Positions 1,893-46,255 of a stretch of DNA of 64,000 bases are shown here, one piece after another. The stretch lies in NCBI GenBank assembly GCA_021029095.1, contig JAJOHG010000066.1, forward strand, positions 87,617-151,616, in the 5' to 3' direction. Source of the DNA: Phellopilus nigrolimitatus (lineage: Eukaryota; Basidiomycota; Agaricomycetes; Hymenochaetales; Hymenochaetaceae). The number at the start of each line of letters is the position of its first letter. The first letter of the stretch is position 1. Under the pieces are notes generated by a model. It searched no databases. It was not told the DNA's origin and was given only the letters and a program-made list of their open reading frames with translations. The position numbers were made by a program, and so were the translations under genes.

Positions 1893-4786
1893 GGCTGGAT
1901 AGTTGCTGGTAGCTCGTAAGGAGGAGTCAAATGCAGGTGCAAGAGAGATCGCTTGCCTACTGGATTACCAGGAGTTCCTTACTACTGGTTTTATGGGCGG
2001 CTTTGGAGGCCCAAACATACCCACAACACGGAAAGGTTCATGGCGTCAAAGCAGTCAAGAATGAGTAAACAAGGGAAACAACAAGTACAATCGATCAGCC
2101 GAGCTAGCTCCGCACGAAGTCGTTTCCTTGAGGAGAACAGACAGAACCGCGAGAACGCGAACCATTGCAAATCACCACATAGGTACAATATGCAGGTACA
2201 GGCGTAACCTCGTCCTAAAGATGCCATCTAGATGAACACGTTCATGTTTTGAGACCGGGCGCTCCACACAGTGCAGCAAAAACGTCCGACGAGAAATGAC
2301 GAGTCCGACAGATGCGGAAGAGCTGTCTTAAGACATTCAGATGACGCCTCGAAACGTTTCGAAAAAGCCGGCAGTGAAAATTAAACATTATGCGAGTTTT
2401 GAAATTAGGGAGAGGCTACGAGGTTTGGAAGATCGTCAATAGCGATGGGCAATTGAGCGCGGCCAGGAATAGACAGTGGATACACCAATTACAAGTGAGC
2501 AGTGCGGAAGACATTGCCATCCATTTGACAGATCCTTCAGAAATTGGTGTGAGTTGACATCGAATGCCACTTACCAAAGTAGTTTCATTTGATATAGAAG
2601 GCTCGAACCATCAAATGCTCGCTCGTGTTGAGTGCTTCCTTGCTTACTGAAAATGACTGGGGCTCAATTTCGGGGGCTTTCCTTTTCTTCCAAGTTCGGA
2701 TGAAGCAGAAATGCATGTACAAGACTCGCTTCGAAGACTTAGAAATATATCTGGCTTGCGACTTGCAGATCTAGGAGCCCTTCCATTTCTTAAAAGATGG
2801 GTGGTAAATTGCGTATGTATCCCAAAGGAAAGGAGGAAATAGAGTACCTGGTCCTGCCTGTTTCTTGTAAGGGTGTGCTTAAGAACACCTTACAAACGCC
2901 AAAGTTGTGTAGCACGAGTCATCCAAGCCGCATCACCTTCTGCCCCAAACATTCTCGCACAGAGCTACTTCAAATTAAAGAAAGAAGACAAGGGAGTCGG
3001 CTAAAGCACCGGCACAAAGCGAACCCCGGAGCAGCGAGAGACAGAACAAGTCAGGAGGGTGCTAGATGATCACACTTGAATCACGTACTAATCTCGAGTC
3101 CGCAACGAGGCGTTCAGGAAACACGGTATGCTCGAAAATATTCCTCGAACCCACGTCTTTCAACAGCCGTTTGTTATGCTCTCTTTCTCTCCATGGCGCA
3201 ATAAGCACGACAGACATTCTTCCCCACCAGAGCGGAACGGAGAAAGGTCCGTGGGAAGGATTCTAAAAAAGAAGAAAAGCAAAAATCGCGACCGTGACGT
3301 GCAGTTCATCAATGATTCGGACTGTTCTCTCAAGAATTCCCCGAGTACAGGTCCTGGCTTCAGAAGGGGAAAAGCGAAGTTAGTTTCGTCAGAGGCAAAA
3401 CATTGAAAACACTACTATCCCGTTTTTTATTTTCCATGCATTTCGATGGTTGTCCGGCGAGAAAGTGCGGAGGTATTTTCCCTTGGTACACGAACATAAT
3501 GCTCAGCTCACAGTGCTTACCGTAAGCCACTTCTGCAAGTTCATAAAGCTCGAGCTCTTTTCTGCACCTCTGGATGGGCAGGTCATTCGTGCTATGTTGT
3601 CTGTTTGTTTATAAGCTTGGAACTGTGGCAAGTTTCGAGTGGCGCTTATTTCGTTTCATTCGCTGTACAGGGAAATGCAAGATCATACAATGTTGGCATC
3701 GACATGGCATCGCAGCCAGTGACTGCCCAGATCGAGTAGCGCTGGTCCTTTGCATCAAAACGTACGCGTGCGAAGCAAGCAGCAATGGACGCGGCTCGTA
3801 CATGCAGTAACGAAGTCAGCTCCGCTACACAGGACGCACCATCGGATGACGCCAACGCGTTTGGTGCATTTTTTGCATCTGGACCGCGTCGAGCTGCCAA
3901 GACGGTCTGAGCAAGATTCTCGGCCTGCGATGCCCTCTGCCGGTGACCTCGTGATGATGCTCGAGGCGCAATCGAAGAATGCAACTAAGAGCAACGCACG
4001 TTTGCTGAAAGAAGTACTGAATGTTTTTCCTGTGCGCTCCTTCGTTGCATATTTCATGCTACATTAGAAGCGCGCTGGGGTTTTTGCAAGCAGGCGGTTT
4101 TGACGGAATCAGGCACGGAATGCCCGTGACCTTCTTCTCCAGTGTGCAACACGCACGGCATAACCAGTCGTGTCCCAAAGGGTTGGGTTCACCCCAATTA
4201 TACAATATTTTACGCACAGGTTGGCTATGCGGGTTCTTTTGATTGGGAGAACGGCGAAAGAGGAGACGCGGCCCCGCGAGATTTTCTACCTAGGCGGCTC
4301 GAACTCAACTTATTCGCGTGTGCCGGGATGCAGTCCGCGTTGCGCCTCCGATGCTTTACGGACATGAATCGGAAAATGCGATTGAGTCGAGGAATCAACA
4401 GAGCTTCAGTTTGCGGCGTGAATGACAGTCATAAGGCTTGTAAGGAATAGTTGGAAGTCAAGCCGGGGCTGAAAAGGGCGCCTAAGGAAAACCTGTCTTT
4501 CACTTACCTGAGCTCCCCGTGCCTCGCAGGCTACACGAGGTGTTATCCATCGAAACCAAGGAAGCTTGATGTAAAGACGATATTGGATTTCCGGACGTGG
4601 CTTATAGCTGACACTGGTCCCGCCTTCTAGTCAGAAAAAGCGAAACATAAACTTGCACGGCTTTTTGAGAATGAGGTTGCGGTAGTGTGCACCAAGCGCA
4701 TCCCTTGTTCTGCTTGTGCCGTTGGCCTCGAGTTCAGTATGAGACGAAACTGCTGGAAAGATTCGGTCTTGCATCGCACTCGTATA
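1893..4786. other. gene-poor stretch, no supported gene
   Basis: Nearly 2.9 kb without a convincing spliced gene. The most protein-like piece is a plus-strand stretch near 3936-4020 encoding a Met/Leu/Ala-rich helical segment. It has no partner exons or recognised motif, so it is not called. The other frames are short and overlap each other. No terminal repeats or long inverted repeats were noticed before the MITE at 4787. Confidence 0.4.
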
Positions 4787-5061
4787 CAGGGGGATGTAGA
4801 AAGTCGTGGTGATCGACATGGACATCCAAAAAAGGAAAATATCCCCAGACCTGTCTATTTATTTTGTTTTCTTTGAGGCAACCCGGGATTAAGGCAAGAA
4901 AGGCTGTATAATGTCAACGGGACACTTTTTTCTGTGAATCAGGTCAAATTCCGGGCATCGAAGGTAGATGTGGAGGGTTCGAACGGTTATCTACGGTGAT
5001 GTGAATCTACTTCCTGATTTGGAAGCAAATGTCGATCACCACGACTTTCTACATCCCCCTG
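4787..5061. mobile_element. MITE copy 1, TA target duplication
   Basis: A 275-bp element bounded by inverted repeats of about 33 bp. The left end begins CAGGGGGATGTAGAAAGTCG and the right end is its reverse complement. Both ends are flanked by TA (4785-4786 and 5062-5063). A second copy of similar sequence lies at 17546-17809. The short length, lack of a transposase frame, long perfect inverted ends and TA duplication suggest a non-autonomous Tc1/mariner-type element, although the CAGGGGG end is not the textbook one. It lies about 375 bp upstream of the first STNATA gene. Confidence 0.85.
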
Positions 5062-5437
5062 TATATTGCCAGGAGGTGCAAACGGCCGTCGGTGGCGTGG
5101 GATATTACTCCCTAGGAATCCCATCAATCCGCGGGTTCATTTTCTTTCTCGTATCTTCCTAAGGCAGGCAATATAATAGATGACATATTTCCTGGCGCTC
5201 TTGAGACTCTTACTACTGTATGTACATTGCATTAATCTCCAATGACCTATCCTTGGGACTCGGCAGTGCATTAGGTTCAAGCCGTATACTTACCAGTGTA
5301 GGCCCGGCTGTGTCCTTGATTCTTCGCTAGAAAGGTCTGCAACTGGGACGGGTTCTCGTCTACGTGTCCCGGCTCAAGTCTTTCTTAATATTTCTCACTC
5401 GCGGCTACTCGCTAGCACGACATCTGACAACGTATAC

Positions 5438-7933
5438 ATGATGTCGGCCTCCGAATTATCTTCTATGGCTGACTCGGACCAAGTTTCTTTGGACTCTGTC
5501 AGCACGAACGCGACAGCAGACGACCTCCCGGGCCCTGGACGTACAATTGGCTTATTATACAACTTCGCAGGGCGACACCTCGAAATGCATCTTGGTCGGG
5601 CCGCGGAGAGAATGGGAATCGGGCATCGAGGGACAGCGATTAGGACTGAGATGAACTGTACGACCATCGCGCTTGCGTCTGAAAATTCAGAACCACCGTT
5701 TTGCGCATCGGATCAAGCTTCGTTGATATCAATCAGTACAAATGCAACTGCAGACAATCTTCCCGGTGCCGGACGTACGCTCGGATTATTCTACAGCTTC
5801 GCAGGGAAACATCTCGAAACACGACTAGGTAGGCTGGCGGGAAGATTAGGCCACGGACCTCGAGCAACGGCCCTTAGAATTCAAGAGAACAGTGGGATTG
5901 TCACACTCGCATCTGTCCTGCCACGACCTCTTTCTCTTATGAAAGCAAGAAATAGGAAAATCCAAAAGGACTGCAAACGCTTGCTTAAATATGTCGGGTA
6001 ATTCATCTTCAATCCCTTTCGAATTTGAAGATGGATTAATGACGCAGCTTAGATCAAATGCACTGTCTACGAGGGGACAGGCATTGGACCTTATCATTGA
6101 TTTATCGCTGGACGATCATATCCGAAATTTTCTCAAAGTCGTAGGTGCAGAACACCTCATTGAACTGGCGCATAAAGAACTCTTTATACGATACGATTGC
6201 AATGCTTCCCTTCTTAGTCGCTCGCGCAAAGCGCTTGTCTCAGTCGCCGATGACGCACTCATGCAGGAGATTAAAACTCTTAGTGAATCAGGAGGACATG
6301 ACTTCATTTACCGGTATGACAATGTATCGGATTACATGAGGTACAACTATTTCTTTTCTCTTACTACGATGCTTCATAATTGTCGATCGCAGGGATCCAG
6401 ATCGCTCGTTCATCGTCGTCAGATGTTTTGTGCGGCTATTCTGTCCTCCTACAAAGGCCGATTTCAAATTTTCAGCAGTACAGGGTCTTTTCCTAGAGTA
6501 CTTGATCATGAGCATCGATATTGCCCCAGAATGGGAGAGTGTCGATCTGTTTTTAAACAGTATTCTTGCGATGGAAGTAGATCAGGCACCTCAATGGGAT
6601 TCCTCTAATGACATCGAATTAATTGGAAAGACACTAGAAATAGTTCTCCGGTAGGATTTTTACGTCCTTTTACTTCTTTGGAACAGCCATATTTACCTCT
6701 CCCATAGACACGCTGATAAGCTACCACGAACAGTTGGTTCAAGGACTTTCCGATGGTTCATTGGAGACTGTATAATCGCGGAGAACGATGAGGCTAGCAG
6801 AAATAGGCACGCAGCTTGGACAGTTGCTCTTCTGCTTAGTTTCATACACCAAAATGACACAGTTCGAGGGGACTTCTCTTGTATCGATTACAACCATATG
6901 TGGAATTTGTATCCGCACCCCGTGCTACGGCCTCTTTTCATCAGGCTCTCGAGTAGGCCGAACCTTCTATTTTACAAGATCGTTCACGAACGGATGGGCG
7001 ACAACATATACCCTTCTGACATGTCCCGGGTTGTCCAGTCTGAATCCACAAAGAAGTTAAGCCAGGAACTCGCGTTGTTTACTGATAGGTTATTTTTCAT
7101 TCTTGTGATATACTCCCTTCGTTCACACTCATTATTATAGTGAAGATCCACTGCTATCATTCTATTCCCGACAACGCGTTGCCCCTCTCCTTGTCATGGA
7201 CAACTATAGTCGAACCGAGATAGTGGAGGCACTATCTACAACTCGATATGCAGGAACACCTGAGTTTGTGCAGTCGATTGAAGCGCGACAGGTTTGTAAC
7301 TCCGTATCGAACGATGGATTTCCCCATATTTTGCTATATCGACACTGTGACGCTGCTGGGGACCTGGTACATATCTGTGTAAGCCCTCTAACTCTATTCC
7401 GATCTTCCGTCTAATCACGGGCCGCCAGTTTCAACTACTAATGATCCCTTATCATTTTCACACTTTAGGACTTTAACTGTGTTTCAAACGGCGATAAACA
7501 TAGACTAGGAATAAACAATGAAGCCGTGCTCGAGCTGCACGTACAGCGCGGGGAAGCATTCTCCAGCGCAGGCCACCATCCAATAGTCGCTGGGCGCATC
7601 AAAAACCAAGGGCTTGCCTATGTTGCGGAGGCTCGTTTTCAGTCTACTGATAGATGTTATTGCGCAGTCACTGATGGAATGAAACCCGAGAACTTGCGTT
7701 TTGCAAAGCAAGATCGGTACTCCCGAAATCATCGGGTGCACACAGCAGAATTGCTCGTCGTGTATGTCCTGCGCTACTCACCGACTATGTACGCTGTGAC
7801 AGATCGAGGTGTCTATGGAGCTGACGAGGGCCTGGATCCAACTGGCCCATTTTCCTGGAAACCCGTGAAGCCTGCAGTGGATCAAAATCCATATCGATCG
7901 TACAAGCATGAGGTGTCCGTAGAAGAAATCTAG
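5438..7933 (+). CDS. STNATA-family protein, copy 1 (unfamiliar family)
   Basis: Six exons (5438-5997, 6053-6340, 6393-6650, 6708-7088, 7141-7378, 7469-7933) give 729 residues with consistent phases; introns are 52-57 nt except the last, 90 nt. Residues ~13-64 and ~91-142 are two copies of one motif: Ser-Thr-Asn-Ala-Thr-Ala, then Leu-Pro-Gly-x-Gly-Arg-Thr-x-Gly-Leu, an aromatic residue, Gly, and an Arg/Leu-rich helix. Residues ~187-575 look all-helical, with no motif I know. The C-terminal exon (~600-690) carries a GHHPIVAG stretch followed by Tyr-Val-Ala and Cys-Ala-Val-Thr blocks, resembling a DM9/DUF3421 repeat. There is no signal peptide or membrane segment, so it is probably intracellular. 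The adjacent copy 2 has the same six exons and nearly the same exon lengths. An in-frame Met at 5441 is an equally good start. Function is unknown. Confidence 0.85.
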
Positions 7934-8625
7934 GCAGACCGTGAAGTAGGCAAGTCCGGCGGAGATGATTAGAATATGTCTAGGAAATAATCCGCAATTC
8001 TTTTCGATTAAATTCCTTTTGGTCTTAGAAACGAGTGATTAGTCGAAGTCATGCACAAGCAAATATGTGTCGCCTGCATGCACGGGCTCGCGCGCTCGGC
8101 CATGAATACTGCAGACACTGCCTACAACCCGATATCGATATGCAAGAATACCTAAGTTCACACTGCTAGTTGAAACACGCCAGACCGTAACTTTACAACC
8201 CCTCCCCCACTACTCGAGCGATTCTACTGCAGAGTGCAGCAGACGGGTGGCGTGGGAGTGCTACGAAATTGGGTTAATGCTTTTGGTTTTCGTTCTTCCT
8301 GTTTATCTCCTTTTTTTACTCCTTCTGAATTCTTTGACTGGGCTACGTTACGGTGGACACACTTCTTGCACTTTCGTAAGACAGGAAACTCAGAGGAGAA
8401 AATGATCCAGTGGCTAGCGCCTGCTACGGGCCGTGGCCCGCACCATGCTTCGCATCACGTATGACCTCCATACTTTATTCTGTGATTGAGAAATCGAGCT
8501 CAAGCCGTATATGTGTCATTTGTAAGCCTGGCTGTGTCCTCTGCGACTGGTTTTGGCCTTGTGTATCCTTGTTAACGTAGCCCTCATTCACAGTTACTGG
8601 TACGATATTCACCGGCGAACGCACG
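7934..8625. other. intergenic region between tandem copies
   Basis: No gene is supported. Around 8105-8200 there are scraps resembling exon 5 of the neighbouring genes (the stretch encoding the Ile-Glu-Ala/Thr-Arg-Gln segment), which suggests a degraded remnant from tandem duplication. The final ~100 bp is the presumed promoter of copy 2 and resembles the region upstream of copy 1 (a run around 'gcctggctgtgtcct'). Confidence 0.4.
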
Positions 8626-11154
8626 ATGTCGATCTCAGAACTCTTCTCTGTGGCCGATTCCGATCAAGCTTCTTTATGCTCAGTCAGCACGAACGCGACC
8701 GAAGACAACCTCCCCGGTCCTGGACGCACGATTGGCCTATTCTATAACTTTGCAGGACGGCACCTCGAAGTCCAGCTTGGCAGGGCCGCGGAGAGAATGG
8801 GCCACGGCTCGCGAGGAGCAGGAATTATGACTGGGAATACCTGTACGGATCTCGGGCTAGTATCTGAAAATTTAGAACCACTGCTCTGTCCATCAGATCA
8901 AGCTTCGTTGCACTCCGTCAGCACGAACGCAACCGCAGACAACCTTCCCGGTGCTGGACGCACGCTTGGCTTGTTCTACAGCTTTGCGGGGAAGCATCTC
9001 GAAGCACGGTTAGGTAGGCTGGCGGGAATATTGGGCCGCGGACCTCGGGCAACAGCCCTTAGAATCCAGGAGAACCAGGGGGTTGTCGCTCTCGCATCTG
9101 TTCTTCCACTACCTCTTTCTCCTACGAAAGCAAGAAATAAGAAAATCCAAAAGGACTGCAAACACTTGCTTAAATATGTCGGGTAATTCATCTTCAATCC
9201 CTTTTTGCATTGAAGATGGACTAATGACGCAGTTTAGATCAAATGCACTGTCTACGAGGGGACAGGCATTGGACCTTATCATTGACCTATCACTGGACGA
9301 TCATATCCGAAACTTTTTAAAAGCCGTGGGGGCAGTGCACCTTATTGAACAGGCACATAAAGAATTATTTATACGAAGCGATTTCGATTTGTCCCTCCTC
9401 AGTCGCTCACGCAAGGCGCTCGTCACTGTCGCCGATGACGTACTCATGAACGAGATAAAGACTATTGGTGAATCAGAAGAAGAGGCCTTGTATTTTCGTT
9501 CTGACAAAATATCATATTATTTGAGGTATATAACTTTTCCCCACTTACTCCGACTGTTGGCACGTTCTAATCTTTGAATACGGATGATAGGGATCCAGAC
9601 CGCTCGTTTATTGTTGTCAGATGTTTAGTCCAGCTATTCTCTCCTCATCGAAAGGATGACTTTTTCTTTTTCCAAATGTGCCAACATGTTTTCCTGGAAC
9701 ACATGGTCATCGCCATTGAAACTTCTCCAGAATGGGAGTCTGTCGATCAATTACTCAACAATATTTTCGTAAGAAGAGAAGATCTCCTATGGCCTTACTT
9801 TGATGACTTTAGGTTGATTGGATTGGCACTCGAAATAGCACTCCAGTTAGTGATATATTAACTAAACTTTTGTTTTCTTTCAGCATTTTTAATTGCTCCG
9901 ATAGGCACGCTGATATGCTACCACGAACCATTGGTTCGGAGACTTTTCAGTGGCTCATAAAAGATTGTGTCTTCACGGAGGACAATGTCACTGACAACGA
10001 TGGACTCATCCATGCAGTTTGGACAGTTATCATTCTACGTAACTTGCTGCGTCAGAACAATACAGCCGGTATGGAGCTTGGTTGCATTGACTTCAAACGT
10101 ATTCGGGACCTGTATCCGCACATAGTACTGCAGCCTCTTTTCGCCAGGCTCTCGAGTGCACCGGACCTCATATATTATCAGATCGTTCACGAACGAACAG
10201 GCGACGTAGAACATTCTCCCATATCTTGGGTTGTCCAATCTGATACCTTGAGGATGCTGAGCCAGGAACTCGCGTTTTTCGCTGACAGGTGCTTATTTAT
10301 TGTCCTATTCCTAATATGCTCGCCTCACTCACATTTATCCTTGTAGTGAAAATAAACTGCTATCGAATCGTGCCCGGCGTTGCATTGCTTCTCTCCTTGT
10401 CCTGGACATCTATTGCCGAACTGCAATATTGCAGGCACTATCTACAACTCGATATGCAAGTACGCGAGAGTTTACGCTGTTGATCGAAACACGACAAGTC
10501 CGTAATTTTGTAGCGAAAGAGCTATTTTCTGGTGGTCGGCCGTATCGACACTGTGATGCTGGTGGGAACTTGGTGCACGTCTGCGTAAGTCTTCTAACTC
10601 TACTTCAACTTAATGTGCAATTACTCGCTCACTGATGATTCCCATCTGCACATTAGGACTATAATTGTACTGAAGACTATATAGGCGGTAAAAAGCACGA
10701 ATTGAGACTCAGCATCGAAGCTGTGCTCGAGCTGCACATACAGCGCGGCGAGGCCTTCTCGTGCGCGGGTCATCATCCGATAATCGCTGGGCGCACCGCA
10801 AATGGGGAGATCGCTTATGTCGCTGTGGCTCGTTTCAAGTCTTACGGCGGACGGTATTGCACAGTCACCGAGGGCATGAAGCCAGAGAACTTATATTTAG
10901 CAGTGCGAGATCCGGATTCCAATGTTGTGCGAATGCGCACACCCAAGTCATTCATCGTTTATGTCCTACGTTATGCACCAGCTGAGTACACAACGAATAT
11001 GGACTGGAATTTCTATGGGGCCTCCGCGGAATTGGATCTGACGGGTCCATTTTCCCAGAAGCCTGAGAAAGATAATGAAGGAGATGGGTCGAAAGAAGAA
11101 GATCGGAAGACAGATGAGGAAGAATCCATATTCACCCCGGCCAGATCCGGGTAA
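8626..11154 (+). CDS. STNATA-family protein, copy 2
   Basis: Six exons (8626-9182, 9238-9525, 9591-9845, 9905-10288, 10347-10584, 10657-11154) give 739 residues. Exon 2 is 288 nt and exon 5 is 238 nt, exactly as in copy 1, so this is a tandem duplicate with conserved intron positions. Both N-terminal STNATA motif repeats are present; the second keeps Leu-Pro-Gly-Ala-Gly-Arg. The C-terminal DM9-like stretch reads GHHPIIAGRTANGEIAYVA, closer to the DM9 consensus than copy 1. The C terminus adds about 30 charged residues rich in Asp, Glu and Lys. There are no stops or frameshifts. It ends 115 bp before the convergent CTP1 gene. The protein is probably intracellular; its function is unknown. Confidence 0.85.
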
Positions 11155-16691: not shown

Positions 16692-19575
16692 TCAGAAATA
16701 CACTCTCCTTGGAATTGAGGTTCCAACGTCTTTGATTTTGCGTTGCTCCCAGTAACACGGGCCTGTTGCATCAACGTAACCCACTTCCGCGATCATCTCA
16801 TCCAATAAACCATCGGCGTCCGGGTCAAACCTCAGCACCATGACTTCGAATTTCGTTGACCGCTTTATCTTCCCTCGGTCGACGTATATCACATCCTTTG
16901 CTCCCTCAGCGACGGTACAGAAGTGCTCGACGCGCTGTGTGCTTGTGCCATTTGTACGCATCGTGTGTACCTGAACGACGTATTCCCTCTCGCCGCGGGC
17001 ATTCACGCCTGCCAGCACGGGATGATGGCCTTCAGAAGAGAACGATTGACTGCGTGCAAGTGAGACGGCAAGCCAAAGAACTTGGTAGGAAGTTTGCTGT
17101 AGTTCTTCGCAATCTTCGATCGACTCATCTAGATCCCAACTTCCTTGTGCGCTGCAGAGCTCGCACGGCCATTTGGGGGAGAACGGAGTAGTCTGTATAC
17201 GAAGCATTGTCAGAAATCGGAAATGGCAAATCTCGCGACGCAGGTGTCTTACCGGGCGGATGTGCATCCGGCCGTCGCGTTGTGACCAATGGCGGAAGAG
17301 GTTGTTGGACGTTCCTTTAAAGTCTAGTGCACGGAAGAAACGGCGTAAATCCGCAGACTCCACCGCCTCTCGAGAGATGTTCACGTATTCCTGGCCCGAG
17401 ATTTGCTGAGACACGGCGAGAAGTGCGTCCATCATCGACCGCCAGAAGTAGCGGTCGAGGAATGTGATACGTTTGATGCAGCGAATTGCATCTGCGAGCA
17501 CTTGCGGGTCCGTGCTTCTTTGGGAGTCAGTACCAGATGAATATACAGGGGGATGTAGAAAGTCGTGGTGATCGACATTTGCTTCCAAATCAGGAAGTGA
17601 ATTCGCATCACCGTTCAAGCCCTCCACATCCTACCTTCAATGCCCGGAACTCAACCTGATTCACACAAAAGTGTCCTGTTGACAGTATACAGTCTTCTTT
17701 GCCTTAATCCCAGGCTGCCTCAAAGAAAATGTAAGAAATAAACAGGTCTGGGTTTTTTTTCCTTTTTTGGATGTCCATGTCGATCACCACGACTTTCTAC
17801 ATCCCCCTGTAGTGTACGCATGAATAACCTGCCTCAAGAGATAATTGGCCATCCTCCCACACATGGTGCGCCTCTTTCCTTCCGGTACTACTTCACAAAA
17901 TCCAGAGAAAGTATTTCCTCTATAATGTTCCCAGACGATGTCTGACATCAGCATATATGGACCAGACAAAACTCTCCACAAAGGGCGGAGAGCTTCATTC
18001 CGGTAAACGAGGCGCGACTCTGACGATTCGAAAGCCAGAATTTGCAAGAAATCCGAGCTGATACCCAGACATGCTAAGCGTACCAGTCGCGAATAGATGC
18101 ACGCACTCAACGAGGGTATAATCTCATTAAACATATCGAGAGAGGCGCTGATATCGCTCAGACGAGTGATGCAGCTGATTGTATGGGGGAAATGGTCCGG
18201 CGAACTTGTAGTAAAGTATATTAGATTAATCATAGACAGAAAACGAGATGGAATAAAATTTCACCTGAGAACGGCATCAACGATCCGGATCCAGACGGCT
18301 GTCACTCTCTCATACATGTTGGTACGCCTGGCGTAGCGGTTGTAATCCACAAGACCCTCTCCAACGAGATAATCCACACACACCCAGTCCAAATAGTCAG
18401 GTGCACTGAGTATCAGTTCTGTAACTAGCTCCATACATTTTATCCACACGTCGCACAAATGACGGGCTCGTGAGCCGTTCCGCGCTGGACCTGAGAGAAA
18501 CCGTCGAATATGCCGAAGAGCCATAAATGAAAAGTTTTGATCACTAATATGTCATCAATCAGTCATAATCTCAACTTGAGTAACAAAGAAAGGAAATCAA
18601 ATAATCCAAAACTCACTCGAAAAACCCAAATAAACTCGACACCTTGTTCAGAATCACCGCTATGTCGCACTTGCGATCGTCCAGACCACGCGCTACGCTG
18701 TTGACCTCAACTTCCGAAAGGGAGAACAACGCCCTGCGTGAGTCCGCGAGAAGTATGTCCCTTTCATTGATATGCCACTTGTAGAGGCGGTGTTCAGTAG
18801 CTCTTATGCTCTCGAAGGCACCTAGGCTGACAAAAACCGCTCTCAGCAATGTATTTTCAATGCTTAACGTCGCAATGTGCTGGAGCGAACGTCTTTGATT
18901 CGAAGGGTTGTCTGAGCTGGAACATCGCAAAGAAGTGAGTGGCGCAGCGTCCACAATAAAAGCCCGTACTCACGTCGCATGCTTCAACAAATACCGGCAC
19001 TCTCTGACAAGTTTATTTTTGTCGTCACATATCATATCCACCGCGCGGTGAATCTGGGTTTCTTTGCGGTGTCTCGCCGAAGTCGCGACGAGCAACCTAT
19101 CGAACGAAGCATCGGGCCCCATTCCCAAATTAGTCGCAAATCTATTCAGACGTTTCTCCAGGATGCGACCTCCAGCATCGTATCCCAGTCCAAGAATCCG
19201 GCCTGGCCCAGGTAGGTTTGGAGCAGTGGCGTTTGTGGAAAGCGTAGAGACGGTGATATCGTCGACGTCTTCTGCGACGTCGTCGTCATCACCACCAGCT
19301 TCATCGTCGTCACCATCAGCTTCATCGTCGCACTGGGGACTTTGAAGGCGTGATTTCCTGAGACTGCTCGCAAGACCGTTAAAACCGTCCTCAATCAATT
19401 GGCCGATAGCATCGTAGGCTAAGCCCAGTGTCCGCCCTGGACCTGCAAGTCCAGGTGCAGTCGCGTTTGTTGATATCGAAGTAGTAGACGTGTTGACGGA
19501 AGAGAAACGGCGGACGTGATCCCATTCCCAGTGATAGTTGCTTGAAGGATCTTCGAGCTCTGACGCTTGTACCAT
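16692..19575 (-). CDS. STNATA-family protein, copy 3, with MITE-bearing intron
   Basis: Six exons (19575-18974, 18916-18617, 18543-18265, 18204-17818, 17514-17253, 17192-16692) give 776 residues with consistent phases. Intron positions match copies 1 and 2. The two N-terminal repeats, residues ~31-80 and ~117-165, read STNATAPGLAGPGRTLGL and STNATAPNLPGPGRILGL. A highly acidic linker of about 30 residues rich in Asp, Glu and Gly separates them. The C-terminal exon has GHHPVLAGVNARGEREYVV and a Cys-Thr-Val-Ala-Glu-Gly block like the DM9-like end of the other copies. Intron 4 is 303 nt because it contains a 264-bp MITE; without it the intron would be only about 37 nt, so this acceptor is the least certain. 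A Met near 17627 would read out of the MITE and is not the true start. Probably intracellular; function unknown. Confidence 0.8.
17546..17809. mobile_element. MITE copy 2 inside intron 4 of an STNATA gene
   Basis: A 264-bp relative of the element at 4787-5061, with the same ends and TA on both sides (17544-17545 and 17810-17811). It sits within intron 4 of the third STNATA gene, only eight bases downstream of the GTACAC donor, and in the same orientation relative to that gene as copy 1 is to copy 1 of the gene family. Its inverted end carries an open frame encoding His-His-Asp-Phe-Leu-His-Pro-Pro. This produces a misleading in-frame extension of exon 5 and explains an identical peptide in the unrelated copy near 5030. 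Confidence 0.88.
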
Positions 19576-22961: not shown

Positions 22962-25513
22962 TCAGACTGGCGGCGCACAGAAGGAGAGGGTCGGAGACAG
23001 AGATGGGGAGAAAGACGGGGATAGGAATACTTCTGAAGGCGAGAGCGGCAGCACGAAGTTGTCGTTCTCGGCGCTCGTGTGCTCGACGGCAGGGGCTTCG
23101 CGTGCAGGTGCTGGAAGCTCATGGGTACCCGCGGGTACTAAAAACTCGTGGTATGCTCCCGCTAGGTCTTCCATGGAAAGTTGTATTTCGATTGAGTCGA
23201 TCGCCGGATCCGAATTCTCGCGCGCTGGTACTGGGTGTTCTGAGAAGAGATCCCTGAACGCCGGTGTGAGATCCGCCCTCATGCGAGCCTCCGATGCCTC
23301 TTCGTGCCTGCCTAGCTTTGACAAATCAACACTCATACTGCGAAGACAGTTGGGAAGAGCTGAATTGATTCTATTCGGGTCCGTCTCTGCCTCCCTTATA
23401 TAAAGTTCTTTCCGATAGGCCTCCAATGCCTCTTCAGGCCTTCCTAGACTTGACAATTTACCACCCATTCTGTTGAGAGAGTTGGCAAAATCTTGATTGA
23501 ATCTATCCGGGTCCTCCTCAGCAAGTGCCTCTCTGATAGAAACTGCCTTCTGGATAGCCTGCAATGATTCTTCATCTCTGCCTAGCTCTCCTAGGCTAAA
23601 CCCCACACCATGGAAAGACTTTGCTAGATATGGATTGAATCCGACTGGGTCATTCTCTGCAAGTTCCTCCCTGATAGAAACTGCCCTCTGGTAAGCCTGC
23701 AATGCCTCTTCATGTCTGCCTAGCTTTCCCAGGGTATACCCCATATCATGAAGAGATTCTGCAAGATCTGGATTGAATCTGTCCGGATCCTTCTCAGCAA
23801 ATGCCTCCCTGATAGAGATTGTCCTCTGGAGAGCCTGCAATGCCTGCTCTTGTCTTCCTAGCTCTGACGAAGTACCTGGCATATCACAAAAAGGATGTGT
23901 AATTAATGTGCCACTCGCCACCGTGGTCAAGTGCTGCTCACTTGTCTCAACCGCATCAAGGACAGTTTGGGCGATCAGCTCGGTAGGTAAATACGGGAGT
24001 CGTATGACAGAGCTATGTTCTAGAGATGAGCCTAGTGTGCTTTCATTATGCTCCTTTTGTACGAACTCCTCTTCGTTAACTCTTTCCCTTCCTTGGTTTG
24101 GATCTTTGACGTTATCAGGACTATCAATTGCTGCGAATGTGTTTTGTCAGAACTGCGCCGAGGAATAACGGATGACAAGTCGGAGCCTTACTTTCAGGCG
24201 AGTTTAGATCTATAGCTTCGACAGGCTGTTCAACAATGGGTTGCACGATCTGCTCATGATCTGCAATAGTTGCTTGTAAGGATGTACTATCACCATCGTA
24301 GAGCGAAACAGTGAGAGAGTACTGACACGAGAGACGAGGACGTTTGGACGGCCGCTCATCTCGTAAGGCGTTCAAAGTCACGACAAGATCATCGATTCCA
24401 GGCCTTTTCACAGGAATATCCCAGCAAGTCTGACACAAGTCCCATAACTTCTGGTAACGAACAGGCCGCGTCTCTATCGACGCGGGACGCAAAGGCTGGT
24501 TACCCTGGAAAATATGAAGGATCACCTGTGCGTCGTTCTTCAGATGAAAGAAAGGTAATCCCTTCGTAAGCAATTCCTGTGAGCGTATAAGGAGAAATTA
24601 AATATACCCAACACAAGAACAGCTGCGCAGGAAATAGCACTTACGTACACCGTCATGCCAAAAGCCCAAATGTCCGACTCCATCGAATGTGTATTCGGAG
24701 GCTCACAAATCTCAAGCAGCTCTTTGGACATCCACCTCAATGACCCCTTTGTTCCATTGTTCTGTGAGCTAGTCCCACCGAACGTCTGCGACGAAATAAG
24801 AATTCGAGATATTCCAAAATCACAGATTCGAGGTAGCCCATCGTCCGAGATTAAGACGTTTTCCTGATTTAATGTATGTGTACAGTCCATCAAAGGAAGA
24901 AAGCGAGCTTTAACTCACGGCTTTCAAATCAGAATGTATGACGCCTTGGCTATGAAGGTATTTGAGGCCCTCTGCTATCCCGATCACCTAATGATTGAAA
25001 ATGAACCTGACCGCAGGTGAACCACTGATAAAGAATTGGAACATACCAAAGGCAAGAGGTCGAGGTCTGGACGTCTTTCCAGATATCTCCTGACTGTTCC
25101 ATTCTCCATCCATTCTGAGATAAGGGAAGGAAAACTGCCTTCTAGCATGTATCCGCAGAACGGCAGAATATTGGGATGGTTGAGACCTGACCACACGTAA
25201 ATCTCCCGTGCAAGATACTGGGTTTATAGGTGCAGTGAGTCCGCGCGCTTGAGACAGAAACTGAAAAGCCCAAATTTACCCTTGTGAATTTCGCTTCGCC
25301 GAGATGTATACGGATACGCTTGACTGCGACTTTACACGGCTCGGAAGAGCCATCTTTAAGCCATCGACCTTCGAAGACGTCGCAGTATCCGCCGCACGCT
25401 ACCATCTCAGGATTTTTCTGCACGACGTCCGTGAGGTCCAAATGCGACACCTTTGCGAGAACCGAGTCTAGCATCTCTCTGGGAATGCGACGAGGCGCTG
25501 TTTCTTCGTTCAT
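22962..25513 (-). CDS. TKL-type protein kinase with C-terminal TPR repeats (kinase A)
   Basis: Six exons (25513-25280, 25217-25047, 24987-24919, 24863-24645, 24576-24192, 24130-22962) give 748 residues with consistent phases. The kinase domain covers about 32-310: glycine loop CGGYCDVFEG at 40-49, ATP-binding Lys in VAVK (65), catalytic loop HSDLKAEN split by intron 3, and metal-binding ICDFGI in exon 4. A GTKGSLRWMSKEL stretch marks the activation-segment end. All catalytic residues are present, so it should be active. From about 440 onward there are roughly five 42-residue TPR units of the type LGRHEEALQAYQRAVSIREE, as in kinesin-light-chain/NB-ARC TPRs. The end is Ser/Pro-rich. Probably a cytosolic signalling kinase; the partner is unknown. 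Kinases B and C at 32.3-35.3 kb are paralogues. Confidence 0.85.
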
Positions 25514-26160
25514 TGGTCTAGAAGTTGAATACAGGTCAAAGACGAATACGACGTGCAGACTGATGTATGTTCGGGGGAGAGTGAGTCCGAGTGTCGTCGT
25601 GGCCGTTCAGGTTCGAGTCGTCTCTCGCAAGGCGGTGAACACGTTGTATCAGGATGTTGCCTAGAAGCTCTGCCGTTGATAGATTACAAACTGCTTTTCT
25701 TAGGCGCCCAAATGCCCAGAGCCAGGTTTGTCAGTACATCCCACCGATGCACTGAGAAGTCACCACAGGAGCTCCAGCTGAAGTAATAGATTGAGTATGA
25801 CTTGACGGGCCGATTTCCAATTCTTGCTAAAAGCTCTAGCAGTGAAGCACTGTATTGCAGTGTCCTGTGAACAGCAAGAGTAAACGTTCGTTTCGAACGT
25901 GAGGCTGCGCCACCGCGGTGAAATTGTCCACTAGAAGCGCCATACTGTCGATTCCGAGTGGGCAGTGCGGCGCCAATGCACTATCGCGACTCGCTCAATC
26001 TCCTCCTACATGTACTTACAATTTGAGCCACTGTAACGAACGAACAAAGCCCGAGGCACCAATTGATAAAAATGGCTCGTAAAGGTCTCGCGAGTTTTCA
26101 ACTCAGAGAGCTGAATTCATCTCCGCAAGAGAGCGGAAACGCGGGGTCATAGAAGTACAT
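25514..26160. repeat. kinase upstream region duplicated at 35308-35975
   Basis: The DNA upstream of kinase A matches the DNA upstream of kinase C almost throughout. Shared runs include 'ggtctagaagttgaatacag', 'attgtccactagaagcgcca' and 'tatcgcgactcgctcaatct'. The match ends near 26160 in this copy and near 35975 in the other, after 'gcggaaacgcgg'. It includes the presumed promoters. Confidence 0.8.
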
Positions 26161-32294: not shown

Positions 32295-34053
32295 CTACAC
32301 TATTCTCCGGATCCGATCCATAACTTGAAGAGAGACTGCAAGATCCAGACTAAATCTGTCTGGGTCCTCTTCTGAGAGTGCCTCCCTGATCAAAACCGCC
32401 CTCAGGATAGCCTCGAATGCCTCTTCATATCTGTCTAGGTCTGACAAATTAACACACATGTTGTGAAGAGAGCTGGCAAGATCTGGATTAAATATATCTG
32501 GATCCTCCTTAGCAAGTGCCTCCCAGATAGATACAGCCCTCTGGTCAGCCTCCAATGCCTCTTCATGTCTGCCTAGGTTCGACAAGTCAAATGCTGCGTT
32601 GTGAAGAGAGTTTGCAAGGTCTGATTTGAACCTGCTGCCTATATCCACCTTAGCGAGTGCCTCCCTAATCAGCACTGTTCTCTGGCTGGCCTCCAATGCC
32701 TCTCCAAATCTGCCTAAAGCTGACAATTGAGAACCCTTATTGTGAAGAGAATCTGCAAGATCTGGACCGAATCTGTATAGGTTACTCTCTGAAAGTTCCT
32801 CCCTGATGTAAATTGCCTCCTGGACAAACTCCAAGGCCTCTTCATGTCTGCCCAGGTCTGACAAGTGAAGACACATATTGTCATTTTGTAAGGCCTCCAA
32901 AGCGGAGTCAATTTGATAGATCGTAATGCGTCTGCCAGGGTAAAGATGCCAGCAAGCACGACATAAGTTCCATAGCTTCTGATAACAAATAGGCCACGTC
33001 TCTGTCGACGCCGGACGCGAAGGTTGGTTACCCTCGGAAATGTGTAAGGACACCTCCCGGTCGTTCTCCAGATGAAAGAAAGGTAGTTCCTTCGTAAGCA
33101 ATTCCTGTGAGTGTATAAGCAGGAATTAAATATACCTAACATAAACCAGCTGCGCAGGCAATAGTACTTACATATACCGTCATGCCAAAAGCCCAAATGT
33201 CTGACTCCATCGAATACGTTATCGGCAGGTCATGCATAGCAAGCAGCTCTTTGGACATCCACCTCACTGATCTCTTTGTTCCGATGTTCTGTGAGCTAGT
33301 CCCGCCGAATGTCTGCGACGAAACAAGGATTTTCATTATTCCAAAATCACAGATTTGAGGTAACCCATCGTTCGAAATTAGGACATTTTCCTGGTTTAAT
33401 ACATGTGCACAATCTGTCAAAGGAAGGAAGTGTAATTGAAACTTACGGCTTTCAAATCAGCGTGTATGATGTTTTTGTCATGGAGGTATTGAAGGCCCTC
33501 GGCTATTCCGATCACCTAACGATCGAACATGAATCTGAATCTGTCCATAGGCGGACTACAAATAATAAATTGGGACATACCAAAGGCAAAAGGTCATGAT
33601 CTGGATGCCTTTCTAAATACCATCTGACTGATCCATTCATCATCCATTCTGAGACGAGGGAAGGAAAATTGCCTTCTAGCAAGTATCCGCAAAACGGCAG
33701 GATATTAGGATGGTGGAGACCTGACCACACGTGAATCTCCCGTGCAAGATACTGGTTTTATAGGTACAGTGAGTCTGCGCGTTTAAGGCAGAAACTGAAA
33801 GACCCAGACTTACCCTTGTGAATTTCGCTTCGCCTAGATGTATACGGATACGCTTGACTGCGACTTTATGCGGTTCTGAAGAGTCATCTTCGAGCCATCG
33901 ACCTTCGAAGACGTCGCAATATCCGCCGCACGCCACCATCACGGGACTAATCAGCTGCACGGCGTCCGTAAGGTCCAAATATGCACGCTCCTCGAGGACC
34001 TCCTCGAGGACTTCTCTCGGACTGCAACGAGGAGTCGCTCTTCTTTCGCTCAT
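32295..34053 (-). CDS. TKL-type protein kinase with TPR repeats (kinase B)
   Basis: Five exons (34053-33814, 33751-33581, 33515-33447, 33390-33172, 33104-32295) give 502 residues. Exons 2-4 have the same lengths as in kinase A (171, 69, 219 nt). The kinase motifs are all present: CGGYCDVFEG, VAVKRIRIHL, HADLKAEN and ICDFGI. The last exon continues directly from the kinase C-lobe into about five TPR units such as LGRHEEALEADQRAVSIWEA; kinase A has an additional linker exon of ~130 residues instead. The protein ends soon after the last TPR. The chosen Met is the one matching the paralogues; the frame is open upstream, but that part overlaps the 3' end of kinase C, only 40 bp away. Confidence 0.8.
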
Positions 34054-34093
34054 GAGAATTAACCGATACAGTGCTGAGGATGTTCTGTCATCA

Positions 34094-35307
34094 TCATCGG
34101 AGTGCAAAATAACGAGAATACTGACTCGGGAGGTCGAGATCTTGGTTGAATCGTGATCGAAACAAAGTAGAGATGATATAATCAATGCTTGACCGTTTCC
34201 CAGGGATATCCCAGCAAGTCTGACATAAGTCCCATAGCTTCTGGTAACAAACAGGCCGCGTCTCTATTGTTGTTGGACATAACGGCTGGTTGCCCTGTAA
34301 TATGTTACTCATCACCTGTGCATCGCTCTCCAGATGAAAGAAAGGTAATTCCATCGTAAGCAATTCCTATGAGTGTATAAGGAGGAATTAAATATACCTA
34401 ACATAAAACCGGCTGCGTAGGCAATAGTACTTACATATACCGTCATGCCAAAAGCCCAAATGTCTGACTCCATCGAATACGTTATCGGCAGGTCATGCAT
34501 AGCAAGCAGCTCTTTGGACATCCACCTTACTGATCTCTTTGTTCCGATGTTCTGTGAACTAGTCCTGCCGAATGTCTGCGACGAAACAAGGATTTGCAAT
34601 ATTCCAAAATCACAGATTTGAGGTAACCCATCGTTCGAAATTAGGACATTCTCCTGGTTTAACACATGTGCACAATCTGTCAAAGGAAGGAAGTGTAATT
34701 GAAACTTACGGCTTTCAAATCAGAGTGTATGATGTTTTTGTCATGAAGGTATTGAAGGCCCTCGGCTATTCCAGTCACCTAGGAATCGAACATGAATCTG
34801 AGCGCAGGTGGGAAACAGATAATAAAATGGGAGCATACCAAACCCACGATGTCACAATCTGGCTGTTCCTTTAGATATTTCCTGGCCGTTCCCTTCTCCA
34901 TCCATTCTGAGACAAGGGAAAAATAATTGCCTTCTCGCCTGTACCCGCAAAACGGAAGGATATTGGGATGGCTGAGACGCCACCATATATAAATTTCCTT
35001 TGCAAATTGCTTTTAAACGCGTTCAGCGAGTTAGCATGCTTGGACAAATCCAAAGAAATCGCCGATTTACGCTCGTTAACTCAGTATCATGTTGAAGATG
35101 TATACGGATACGCTTCACAGCGACCTTGCTCTTGCAGGAGCCGTTACGCATCCACCGACCTTCGAAGAGGTCGCAGTATCCGCCGCACGCCGTCATTACG
35201 GGATTGGTCGGCTCCACGCCGTCCGTAAGATCCAAATGCGAGACTTTCGCGAGGATCGAGTCCAGTATTTCTCTGGGACTGCGACGAGGAGCTGTTTCTT
35301 CGTTCAT
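34094..35307 (-). CDS. TKL-type protein kinase without TPR tail (kinase C)
   Basis: Five exons (35307-35071, 35009-34839, 34778-34710, 34653-34435, 34366-34094) give 322 residues. Exons 2-4 again have lengths 171, 69 and 219 nt. The catalytic Lys (VAVK), HSDLKAEN and CDFGI are present, so the kinase could be active. Exon 1 diverges just before its 3' end, where the paralogues have Gly-Glu-Ala-Lys-Phe-Thr-Arg. The C-lobe ends 30 residues after Cys-Trp-Asp-Ile-Pro with no TPR repeats. The stop lies only 40 bp before the start of kinase B, so this copy probably lost its TPR exon in the rearrangement that made the tandem. Its start Met-Asn-Glu-Glu-Thr-Ala-Pro matches kinase A. Confidence 0.78.
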
Positions 35308-35975
35308 TGGTCTAGAAGTTGAATACAGATCAAAGACGAATACGACGTGCTGCTAGTATAGACTAAGGTATGTTCGGAGGAGGGTGAGTCCAAGTGTCGT
35401 CGTGGCCGTTTAGGTTCGAGTCGTCTCTAGCAAGGCGGTGAACACGTTGGGTACACGTTGTATCAGGATGTTGCCTCTCTGCGATTGATAGATTGCGAAC
35501 TGTTCTTCTTAGAAGCCCAAGCGCCCAGAGTCGGGTTTGTCAGCACATCCCGTCGATGCACTGAGAAGTCATCACAGGAGCTCCAGGCTGCCGCTGAAGA
35601 AATAGATTGAGTATAACTTGACGGACCGATTTCCAATTCTTGCTAACAGCTCTAGCAGTGAAGCACAGTATTGCAGTGTCCTGTGAACAGCAGAAGTAAA
35701 CGTTCGTTTTGAACATGAGGCTGCGCCACCGGTGAAATTGTCCACTAGAAGCGCCATACTGTCGATTCCGAGTGGGCAGTGCGGCGCCAATGCACTATCG
35801 CGACTCGCTCAATCTCCTCCTACATGTATGACCCGACAGTCCTTGTGAAGAACGAACAAAGCCCAAGGCACCAATTGACAAAAATGGCTCGTAAAAGTCT
35901 CGCGAGTTTTCAACTCAGAGAGCTGAATTCATTTCCGTAAGAAAGCGGAAACGCGGGTTCATAGAAGTAACAGCT
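35308..35975. repeat. kinase C upstream region, copy of 25514-26160
   Basis: Collinear with the DNA upstream of kinase A, with small indels (for example an extra 'gggtacacgttg' near 35450). It shows that the kinase and its promoter were duplicated together. Beyond 35975 the two copies diverge: one is followed by the MFS fragment, the other by the PalI-like fragment. Confidence 0.8.
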
Positions 35976-41347: not shown

Positions 41348-41491
41348 GTCGCGTCCCCGAAATATCTTTTTTTTTCCGCAAGTTAAACATCGCGAATTTG
41401 CATATTTACCCATCCCTCTCGCGACTGAGACATTGAAATTCAGGATACAGTACAGAAAGACTCCTGCGTCTTTGACATACATACAAGTATC

Positions 41492-41880
41492 TCAAAAGTA
41501 CATTCTCCTTGGAATTGAGGTTCCAACGTCTTTGATTTTGCGCTGCTCCCAATAACACAGGCCTGTTGCATCAACGTAACCCACTTCCACGATCATCTCA
41601 TCCAATACACCATCAGCGTCCGGATCAAACCTCAGCACCATGACTTCGAATTTCGTTGACCGCTTTATTTTCCCTCGGTCGACGTATATCACATCCTTCG
41701 CGCCCTCCGCGACCGAGCAAAAGTCAAAAGTGCTCAATGCGCTGCGTGTTCTCGCCATTTGTACGCATTGTGCGTACCTGGGCGACGTATTCCCGCTCGC
41801 CCGGAGAATTCACGCCTGCTAGAACAGGATGGTGGCCTTCAGAAGAGAACGATTGACTGCGTGCAAGTGAGACGGCCCAT
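41492..41880 (-). pseudogene. STNATA-family C-terminal exon fragment
   Basis: This matches the last exon of the third STNATA gene (16692-17080) almost throughout, including GHHPVLAGVN and the Arg-Arg-x-Tyr-Phe C terminus. A tandem duplication of the 7-mer ACTTTTG near 41725 shifts the frame inside the conserved Glu-His-Phe-Cys-Thr-Val-Ala region, so the fragment cannot make the domain. Homology ends abruptly at about 41880 and is followed by the RRP44/DIS3 fragment on the same strand. The other five exons are absent. Confidence 0.85.
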
Positions 41881-42509: not shown

Positions 42510-44953
42510 ATGCAGACTACTGTAAGCCAAGCACTCATCGACCTATTGAATGCGACTGCTACCAGTCATCGCACAGAATTCTCCCACCCGCGATCTAAGC
42601 CGCAGGACGTTGAACCCCGTCCGTCTTTCGTCACACACGCGATTCGGCATGGAAACGGACATGAAGCTGGAACTGGCCCAAGCCATTTTTCAATCAAAAG
42701 ACCTTGTCGATGCGGTGTTTGGGCATCTCGTTGATCTGCGCAAAGCTGAGGAGTACGTCGAGAAACTCATCGCTCAAGGTCGCGTCTCCGTCAAACAACC
42801 CAAGATTTCCGACGACGCTGTGGATGCTCGCACGGCCATTCTCAGCGCCTCAGAAGCCGCTCAAGAGTATCGACTGGGCCGGTCTCGAAGCGAGGATAGC
42901 TATGTCTGGTCTTGGACTGATGATATCTGCACGGATGATGGCTCAGTTAAATTCCTGAACGACATCATCCAAGGTTGCTTATCTGACGCCGATATAAATA
43001 ATCTGTTTGTCGCTCCTTTCGACACCATCCATGCATTCCCGTTAGCATATGGATGACGAGAAGACATGAGACCTGATTTCATACTCCTCTCTAAGGACAA
43101 TATGTTCGACGCGCTGTATCACAACTTTTCTGTCATCTTGTCTCCTGGAGAGCTCAAGACCTCTGACGCCTCCGATTCTCTACTCCAAGTCAGTCGCTAC
43201 AACCGCGTTATAAACTTAGCTCAACCAGGTCGTCGGTTTGTCGTTTCTATGGCATTCACTGGTCCGACGGTCACTCTGGTCAGAACAGATCAAAGTGGTA
43301 TGGAGTACTGCACCCTCGATATTACTTCGTCTGGGGGAGCAATCAACTTCATCCGCGTTCTCGTTGGGTTCGCTATTGCTAGCGATCAGGATCTCGGTCT
43401 GGATCCCAACGTCGTCTTCAAACCGAAGAAATGTCACGCTACCATTTCTACATTGCAAAGCGAGGATCCAGATCTAAGCGAGGATGACTGGCTATCAGAG
43501 TCTGAAGAACCGGTCGACGCGCCGCCAAAGCGAGTTGAGCTCGTCGCACGGACGGCAGGAGGCATCGCTTGTCGACGATCTGCCACAGATACTGCTCCTG
43601 TGCATTATAAGATTCTCGGGCTTATTTACAATGCATCGTCTATTTGTGGCAGGGGCGTTCAAACATACGTTGCGCAGAAGGAAGGAAACAAGGGATCGCG
43701 TCTTCTGGCTCTGAAGCGGTCTTGGCAGGAAAATAAATGTTTGATCAGTGAACAACGATTTCACAGACTCGCTCGGGATGGTGGAGTGACAAACGTTTTA
43801 CTCGCTAACGAGTTCGTCTTTGACACGTCCTTCGCACGCATTTTCGCCACTGACTTTGTCGTAGAATATATAGGAGCTACGTGAACGAGAGGGAGGATAC
43901 GACATTGTATAACATTCGCAATTTTGCGGGGGGCGCAGCGGAGGCCCTTGGTGTCGAAAACCGGACGCTCGTGTACTTGGAATTCGATTTGAAACGGCCA
44001 ATTCGGTATTTCTGGAGCTTGCAGGATTTCGTAATGGGGATTGCGGATGCGATGGAAGGTATGTCCCTTTATTGTGTCTTTCTAGGATAGAGTCCGATTC
44101 CAGTGCAGGCCACAAATTTCTCGTCGAGAAGAAAATACTACACCGTGATATTAGCGAGAATAACGTCGTGCTCGCTCTCAATCCGTCTGAGTCTTCGAGA
44201 GCTTACCTGATTGACCTTGATATGGCTACGGATTACAGTTCCGAAGAACAACCCTTTGCGAAAGGAGTAAATGCATTAATGGATGAGTCGGAGTTGGCAA
44301 TACCACGTAGGGATGAGGTTGTTGAGAACTATCCAGCACAGAAAGGGGACAGGACTGTAAGCAATGTCTTCTTCTCTCTCTTACTATGATAATTAAACAG
44401 TTATAATCAGGGAACGACACCATATATGGCTATCAGTGTTCTGAAAGGCGGGAACCACGGCGTTCGTGAAGACCTCGAATCGTTCTTCTACGTCATATTC
44501 CTCTTCTTCTTCTCTTTCAGAGGGCCCCTTCCTCAGGGTGTGTTGAAGGAGGCGCATGAAAACGGGTACATTAAAAGACTTGGCGACAAAGGAGCTGCAT
44601 ACAGAACGCATATACTTCTTTGGCCAGAGCTCATGCAACAATGGTCACATGGTTCTTTCTCGGCCATAGCAGATTCGAAAAGAGGATTTTTCGAAGACAA
44701 AACAGAAGTAGGAAAGGCGTTTCAGCAGCGGGCTATGAACGGGTGGGACAACGAGTATGCATCTATGGTGGTTCTGTTTCCTCGGATCTACAATATGTTC
44801 GTAAACGATTCGCCCGTTCCGAGCCACGATTCTTTTATCGGTATCCTCCGTGATTGGCTGAAGAGATTTCCTGTTCCGCCTGCAGGACGGAACAGCTGTC
44901 CGTTTCACGTGTGTATCCCTTTACGTCTGCACCTACATTTTGTCTCATACTAA
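42510..44953 (+). pseudogene. FunK1-type fungal protein kinase, damaged
   Basis: The frame contains the FunK1 order: MRPDFILL, Gly-Glu-Leu-Lys, SRYNRVINLAQPGRRFVV, then kinase motifs LHRDISENNVV and LIDLDMA (the FunK1 form of DFG), then GTTPYMA and the C-lobe. Splice sites at 44058/44109 and 44356/44411 give clean joins. Lesions: an in-frame TGA at 43054-43056 directly before the MRPDF block; a frame change near 43880 that could be an undetected intron; and a possible one-base shift near 42645 in the N terminus. FunK1 kinases are greatly expanded in Agaricomycetes; their substrates are mostly unknown. Probably a recent pseudogene, or a gene with an assembly error. The 3' end after 44910 is uncertain. 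Confidence 0.72.
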
Positions 44954-45833: not shown

Positions 45834-46255
45834 CGCAAACCAAGAGGAAGGATTCTAGGTGCTAGTGTTGGATATGCATCTGGCTATTACCTTCCTGGAC
45901 CTTAAATACTAATCCGCGTAAGTGCTCCGTGGTTCAGAGCGCAGCTTCGGTGATAGGCTATAGGCCATAGGGTTCGGCGTACACAAGGAGGGGATTGATG
46001 GCTTCAGCACGCGACGACCAGAAAATATTGATTATTGAAGGACAGGAAAGTAAATTTCACGAATATCCAGTGAGCAAACTAAACATTAGCCGCGCTAGGT
46101 AAATGTCCATGTACATATTTACATACAAACTTGTCGGCTCTTGCGCCGCCGCCCTGATTATCTAATGTTCCCACGACATTTCAGCCACATCTACGCGACG
46201 CTGTTATTGAACACCACATACTCTCTAACTCTATCCTCTTTCATCAACTTCATCC
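45834..46255. other. promoter region of the F-box cluster
   Basis: No gene. The last ~100 bp before the start at 46256 (including 'ctgattatctaatgttccca' and 'tctacgcgacg') recur upstream of the intact F-box gene at 49335-49451, so both copies share a promoter-proximal segment. Confidence 0.5.

Follow-up and report, generated by a model that had tools for sequence, protein, structure and literature searches.

Repeated helical motifs, a probable armadillo-type solenoid and an optional DM9-like tail in an unnamed Agaricomycete protein family

Multi-copy intracellular proteins that lack a name are numerous in basidiomycetes, and little is known about the recognition systems of these fungi. What, then, do three related genes in a 64-kb stretch of the Phellopilus nigrolimitatus genome (64,000 nucleotides, positions 87,617-151,616 of contig JAJOHG010000066.1; hereafter the window) encode, and what could their products do? 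The proteins of genes 1, 2 and 3 appear to be built from a repeated helical motif, named here STNATA after its first residues, an armadillo (ARM)-type solenoid and, optionally, a tail resembling the DM9 domain. We consider this anatomy likely. As to role, we favor, at a probability of about 0.4, that genes 1-3 encode intracellular assembly scaffolds with a variable recognition tail and belong to an expanded, unnamed Agaricomycete family. The layout itself would place them inside the cell.

Three parts of the predicted proteins

The exons of genes 1-3 lie at matching places and are of near-equal length (Table 1), giving the six-exon layout that the original prediction, made from the DNA alone, had described. 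In genes 1 and 2 all ten introns have GT-AG borders and lengths of 52-90 bp. These two genes are most alike in exon 1 (79% identity) and exon 2 (75%) and less so across exons 3-6 (52-56%); gene 3 matches either at about 29-34% (tblastn). With the three proteins as tblastn queries, no copy beyond genes 1-3 and two fragments was found in the window; both fragments had been predicted. The public annotation partly hides the family: the P. nigrolimitatus protein P0001 at NCBI is gene 2 for the first 367 of 739 residues, then enters intron 3 and stops, without much of the solenoid and without the entire tail.

The N-terminal motif spans about 50 residues and consists of a STNATAxNLPGxGR cap and an amphipathic helix, most of whose small residues share one face. 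Its consensus from 28 seeds is STNATADNLPGPGRILGLLYDFAGRRLESQLGRVAERLGKGPRATAVRIQ. Because the pattern used to pick seeds fixes much of the cap, only conservation outside it is informative. There, columns 17 (Gly 96%), 24 (Gly 100%), 32 (Gly 57%), 35 (Ala 93%) and 39 (Gly 82%) fall within about 80 degrees of the helical wheel. Per protein, a hidden Markov model (HMM) of the motif finds one to three copies across the family; the paired motifs of the original prediction thus hold for gene 1, which has two, and not as a family rule. The copy adjoining the solenoid is the constant one: the mean resemblance of single copies is 56% to it and 47% to the extra copy. Two copies within one gene are 57% alike, more than extra copies across genes (48%).

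Repetition in tandem would also suit an amyloid motif. Motifs of the HET-s type (HRAM-like) have been proposed for NOD-like receptors (NLRs) of Agaricomycetes, Sphaerobolus included, in the available parts of PMC9815663, and the STNATA motif could be a basidiomycete counterpart of such motifs, which pair NLRs with pore-forming effectors. However, the helical part is periodic at 90-100 degrees (p 0.006 at 100 degrees, 2000 shuffles) and not at the 170 degrees of a beta strand (p 0.66), an indirect test that agrees with the helix predicted by AlphaFold2 (AF2). The motif is also longer than the 12-30 residues given in a table of PMC9815663, as far as that table was available, and no NLR carrying it turned up, though no search was aimed at such NLRs. 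Amyloid signaling is therefore highly improbable.

An AF2 model of the homologue P0003, built from 14 sequences, has a mean predicted local distance difference test (pLDDT) of 72.4 and a predicted TM-score (pTM) of 0.65. Helices run to residue 523 and are followed by ten strands. Armadillo and related helical-repeat proteins topped both fold searches, with low TM-scores and from a model of moderate quality. Since the scores are low, the type of repeat is likely rather than exact, and the middle of about 400 residues is probably an armadillo-type solenoid. The helical middle, the beta-rich C-terminal domain and the three-part layout as a whole had been foreseen; the model bears them out, and the layout recurs in relatives from other basidiomycetes. 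Importin-alpha, Vac8 and Armc8 resemble the family in predicted helical solenoid and comparable length. Unlike these, it lacks an Arm match at the sequence level: no Pfam Arm or HEAT model matched gene 1 (E up to 10) or any of 16 homologues (E up to 1), one of which gave a chance-level match to the neurobeachin alpha-solenoid model (E 0.32). To our knowledge, neither the STNATA motif nor a DM9-like tail is part of importin-alpha, Vac8 or Armc8.

Some members end in a single C-terminal beta domain, probably a divergent DM9 fold. In the models the tail has the fold of the oyster DM9 protein CgDM9CP-1/CGL1 (5mh3), and its segment around P-I-x-A-G...Y-x-A aligns with DM9 (PF11901). The curated Pfam cut-off of 26.2 bits was not reached, the best score being 13.2 bits for the gene 3 tail, with none of 16 homologues above it; 10 other places in the genome were flagged as DM9 above this cut-off, two of these only when taken together with their neighbors. 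Foldseek gave no significant match with the tail. DM9 proteins as such are already known in fungi, according to the available parts of PMC5712788, and our literature search found no paper combining DM9, armadillo and fungal; for the DM9 domain in basidiomycete fungi it turned up one paper, on aerolysins. MFP2 of nematode sperm (2bjq, 2bjr), also among the closest known systems, is a protein of another kind.

Could the tail make these proteins cytosolic defense lectins acting like CGL1? Oyster DM9 proteins bind mannose and microbes, and the CGL1 mannose site lies between two DM9 domains and requires Asp22 and Lys43, as described in the accessible portions of PMC4932603 and PMC5712788. The models and alignment here show one DM9-like domain per protein, joined to a solenoid, rather than two. 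In the 26 rows of the tail alignment, the Asp22 column holds Thr in 17, Asn in four, Asp in two (P0017 and P0018) and Ile, Ala and Lys in one each. The Lys43 column has no Lys in any row and a gap in two, the alignment being uncertain there, next to a gap. Of the 25 homologues known (see below), 15 were tried for this alignment and 11 entered; P0005, P0010, P0019 and P0021 were missed by the anchor pattern. By this alignment the mannose-binding residues are mostly not conserved. Despite the DM9-like fold and the Asp of two Schizopora members, a mannose-binding defense lectin is improbable, and the ligand of the tail is probably not mannose in the manner of CGL1.

Family extent, selection and turnover

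Searches with gene 1, a 14-row alignment and P0024 yielded 19, 12 (5 new) and 2 (1 new) homologues, 25 in all. Each scored only the roughly 8000 candidates sharing most words, which gives no basis for absence outside Agaricomycetes. The sources are Phellopilus, Coniferiporia weirii, Phellinidium pouzarii and Schizopora paradoxa of the Hymenochaetales, and Sphaerobolus stellatus of the Geastrales. All 25 are annotated as hypothetical or uncharacterized proteins, none with a precomputed Pfam domain. Two Sphaerobolus proteins are distant, matching the motif at E 2e-11 (P0025) and 9e-5 (P0024) and, in a small database, the solenoid start at no better than E 0.002. As a query, P0024 matched itself and one paralogue only.

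Our own Pfam scans found no family in gene 1 at E up to 10, none in P0025, and only single chance-level matches in 16 homologues at E up to 1 (best E 0.066). The gene 1 sequence had chance-level matches only in the PDB (best E 0.087). That the family is unnamed thus stands: no Pfam model exceeds its cut-off in gene 1, the gene 3 tail or 17 homologues, these scans gave no full-length profile match to a characterized family, and basidiomycete homologues of the same layout without a Pfam name were found among the 25 relatives.

To count copies we searched the assembly (56.4 Mb, 635 contigs), in which the locus is present as two haplotypes with contig C13 the counterpart of the window contig. Because a genome search scores no more than the best candidates, all counts are lower bounds, and both haplotypes are included. 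With the first 176 residues of gene 1 as query, at least 76 places matched; they form 71 motif loci spread over 38 contigs, with 10 on C68, consistent with the prediction of a multi-copy family. The gene 1 tail matches at least 22 places, 20 of which have a motif locus within 4 kb; conversely, a DM9-like tail was detected no more than 4 kb away from 20 of the 71 motif loci. A search with a single tail misses divergent ones, gene 3's own being found only at E 4e-4. A tail HMM applied to 15 further loci detected a tail at one of them, the allele of gene 3, a near-twin of which is part of that model. Several of the 15 end too early for a tail, and that of L019 lies outside the stretch searched; L052 and L066 extend more than 1.3 kb past their open frames with no tail detected by this HMM. 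The solenoid start was detected in 14 of the 15 (E below 0.01) with a model of 17 sequences that left out genes 1 and 2. The remaining locus, L065 (G000:C179:98001-102000), encodes two copies of a distant motif relative, GPGRxxDKYxYQxxGRLIE, with no solenoid start detected. Its sequence suggests that the motif superfamily extends beyond the STNATA form.

Between genes 1 and 2 the ratio of nonsynonymous to synonymous divergence (dN/dS) is 0.37 overall, lowest across the motifs and exon 1, with dS 0.69. Between the gene 3 alleles the corresponding polymorphism ratio (pN/pS) is 0.24. Such purifying selection indicates that the genes are probably used, and between genes 1 and 2 it led us to reject decay of the whole family. 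Neither comparison showed diversifying selection. The motif and the solenoid start are the most constrained parts, with the rest of the solenoid and the tail more variable.

Fast turnover, also predicted, holds in part. The dS value makes the tandem pair old, while fragments, signs of gene conversion and a broken allele speak for turnover. One stretch of 332 bp is identical in gene 3 and the fragment near 55 kb though the alleles of each differ by 3-7% across it, so gene conversion between them is likely. The fragments near 41 and 55 kb may represent a single copy whose two halves now lie about 13 kb apart. A Pkinase_fungal kinase gene (43057-44953, plus strand) lies between them. The two haplotypes are identical over 3661-10979 except for one transposable element (4787-5061) and differ by several percent beyond; the identity may reflect a recent shared block, a conversion tract or an assembly effect. 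In gene 2 of the other haplotype the frame is broken near the 3' end, downstream of the DM9-like core. The gene 3 alleles differ at 36 of 771 aligned residues, the other being longer by 15 residues. Together the sequences bear the marks of a family that is used and slowly reshuffled.

Tandem copies, fragments and signs of conversion, along with a shared N-terminus and a variable C-terminus as in NLRs, would fit a basidiomycete self/non-self or immune receptor in which the motif is a signaling tag, solenoid and tail are sensors, and the output is cell death or restriction. Against this, no NACHT, NB-ARC or known effector domain was found in gene 1, the gene 3 tail, 16 homologues or P0025. The low pN/pS of the gene 3 alleles and the identity of genes 1 and 2 across haplotypes up to 10979 are the opposite of a polymorphic locus, with the caveat that one dikaryon is a sample of two. 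We regard such a receptor as unlikely. The self/non-self or defense role offered in the original prediction gained no support from selection, haplotypes or domain content (the scanned proteins showed neither an NLR nor a cell-death domain); it is possible. The available parts of PMC12878558, a population study naming P. nigrolimitatus, contain nothing on the locus.

Scaffold, adaptor or receptor

Genes 1-3 as assembly scaffolds would work as follows. The small-residue faces of the motif helices would pack together, within or between molecules, and the proteins would thereby form oligomers or gather on a common partner. The solenoid would hold a peptide or protein ligand, and the optional tail would supply a recognition surface. 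Members could therefore couple one conserved assembly step to different ligands. Two details weigh against this account: column 41 (Gly 82%) lies off the common face, at 240 degrees, and P0017 and P0018 keep the Asp in the Asp22 column. Both weaken their part of the mechanism and slightly lowered our confidence in it.

A more ordinary role is possible but doubtful. The family could be a lineage-expanded trafficking or transport adaptor like Vac8 or importin-alpha, with the motif as a membrane- or carrier-binding element and the tail structural only. Vac8 and importin chains were among the ARM matches of the fold searches, and purifying selection with no diversifying signal suits such a role. 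Many variable copies and an optional tail would, in our judgment, be unusual in housekeeping adaptors, and neither gene 1 nor the 16 homologues matched a Pfam Arm or importin model.

A bolder reading is that the motif and armadillo core define a basidiomycete-specific class of intracellular receptors parallel to NLRs, built on a solenoid and without a nucleotide switch. The motif helices would assemble a signaling complex once an interchangeable C-terminal module, DM9-like in some members, meets its ligand. Fungal NLRs, as covered in the available parts of PMC9815663, share this modular logic of a common N-terminus, a variable C-terminus and many copies per genome. They differ in that no nucleotide-binding domain was found in the scanned proteins of the present family and its motif is helical rather than amyloid-like. 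We think this receptor reading quite unlikely.

Gene models and surrounding sequence

The coding models of genes 1 and 2 are intact, as predicted; for gene 3 this is likely but unproven, given a GC donor and a miniature inverted-repeat transposable element (MITE) in its intron 4. This intron is 318 bp long in the window. The allele on the other haplotype (L049) is without the 270-bp stretch, and its intron 4 is 52 bp long, has a GT donor and agrees in phase with that of genes 1 and 2. We redrew exon 5 because an exon start at 17630 falls within the MITE; a frame from there would turn part of the element into coding sequence, and the revised model is likely the better one.

The 270-bp element with inverted ends is a MITE, presumably of the Tc1/mariner kind judging from its borders, and its family has at least 35 places of 180 bp or longer in the genome, this copy included. 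Matches of tblastn at 4779-5066 stemmed from the MITE part of our first gene 3 model, and the sequence upstream of gene 1 was rejected as a further family fragment, being a second MITE. This copy is missing from the other haplotype despite flanks without a base difference over 5.5 kb, so the MITE family probably moved recently.

Table 1. Coordinates of family genes and associated features in the window.
Feature	Position	Strand	Description
Gene 1	5438-7933	+	six exons, 729 residues; two N-terminal motifs, ARM-type solenoid (probable), DM9-like tail (probable)
Gene 1 exons	5438-5997, 6053-6340, 6393-6650, 6708-7088, 7141-7378, 7469-7933	+	560/288/258/381/238/465 bp
Gene 1 motif copy 1	5501-5647	+	about residues 22-70; motif HMM 83.7 bits (gene 1 among seeds)
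Gene 1 motif copy 2	5735-5884	+	about residues 100-149; motif HMM 89.6 bits (gene 1 among seeds)
Gene 1 exon 6	7469-7933	+	DM9-like beta domain, core at exon residues 21-100
Gene 2	8626-11154	+	six exons, 739 residues; tandem paralogue of gene 1
Gene 2 exons	8626-9182, 9238-9525, 9591-9845, 9905-10288, 10347-10584, 10657-11154	+	557/288/255/384/238/498 bp
Gene 2 exon 6	10657-11154	+	DM9-like tail; frame of other haplotype broken near 3' end
Gene 3	16692-19575	-	six exons, 771 residues (revised model)
Gene 3 exons, revised	19575-18974, 18916-18617, 18543-18265, 18204-17833, 17514-17253, 17192-16692	-	602/300/279/372/262/501 bp
MITE	17542-17811		about 270 bp, inverted ends about 53 bp, TA borders; in intron 4 of gene 3; absent from other haplotype
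MITE, second copy	about 4785-5067 (4787-5061 in haplotype comparison)		upstream of gene 1; absent from other haplotype
Gene 3-like fragment	54857-56239	-	exons 1, 2 and part of 3, with upstream sequence; 88.8% DNA identity to gene 3 region
Gene 3-like fragment	41456-41876	-	part of exon 6; 86.6% DNA identity
Likely conversion tract	18945-19276	-	332 bp, identical to 55341-55672

Among 30 of the 90 listed neighboring open frames, Pfam scans found ERG4/ERG24, kinase-like exons, tetratricopeptide (TPR) repeats, the Pkinase_fungal gene and a short-chain dehydrogenase; none of the 30 explains the function of the family. Two other duplications lie in the window. On the minus strand, 22962-26157 and 32295-35969 are copies, each with kinase-like exons (24543-24914 and 34315-34719) and TPR frames (22965-24146 and 32298-33125), and a further partial copy lies at 32929-34053. 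On the plus strand, a tandem duplication at 46154-54056 has long open frames of 409, 264 and 280 residues with no Pfam match at E up to 0.01.

For the biology of these fungi, the family would tie a DM9 fold to a solenoid scaffold. It can now be defined by three testable parts: the STNATA motif, the solenoid and the optional DM9-like tail.

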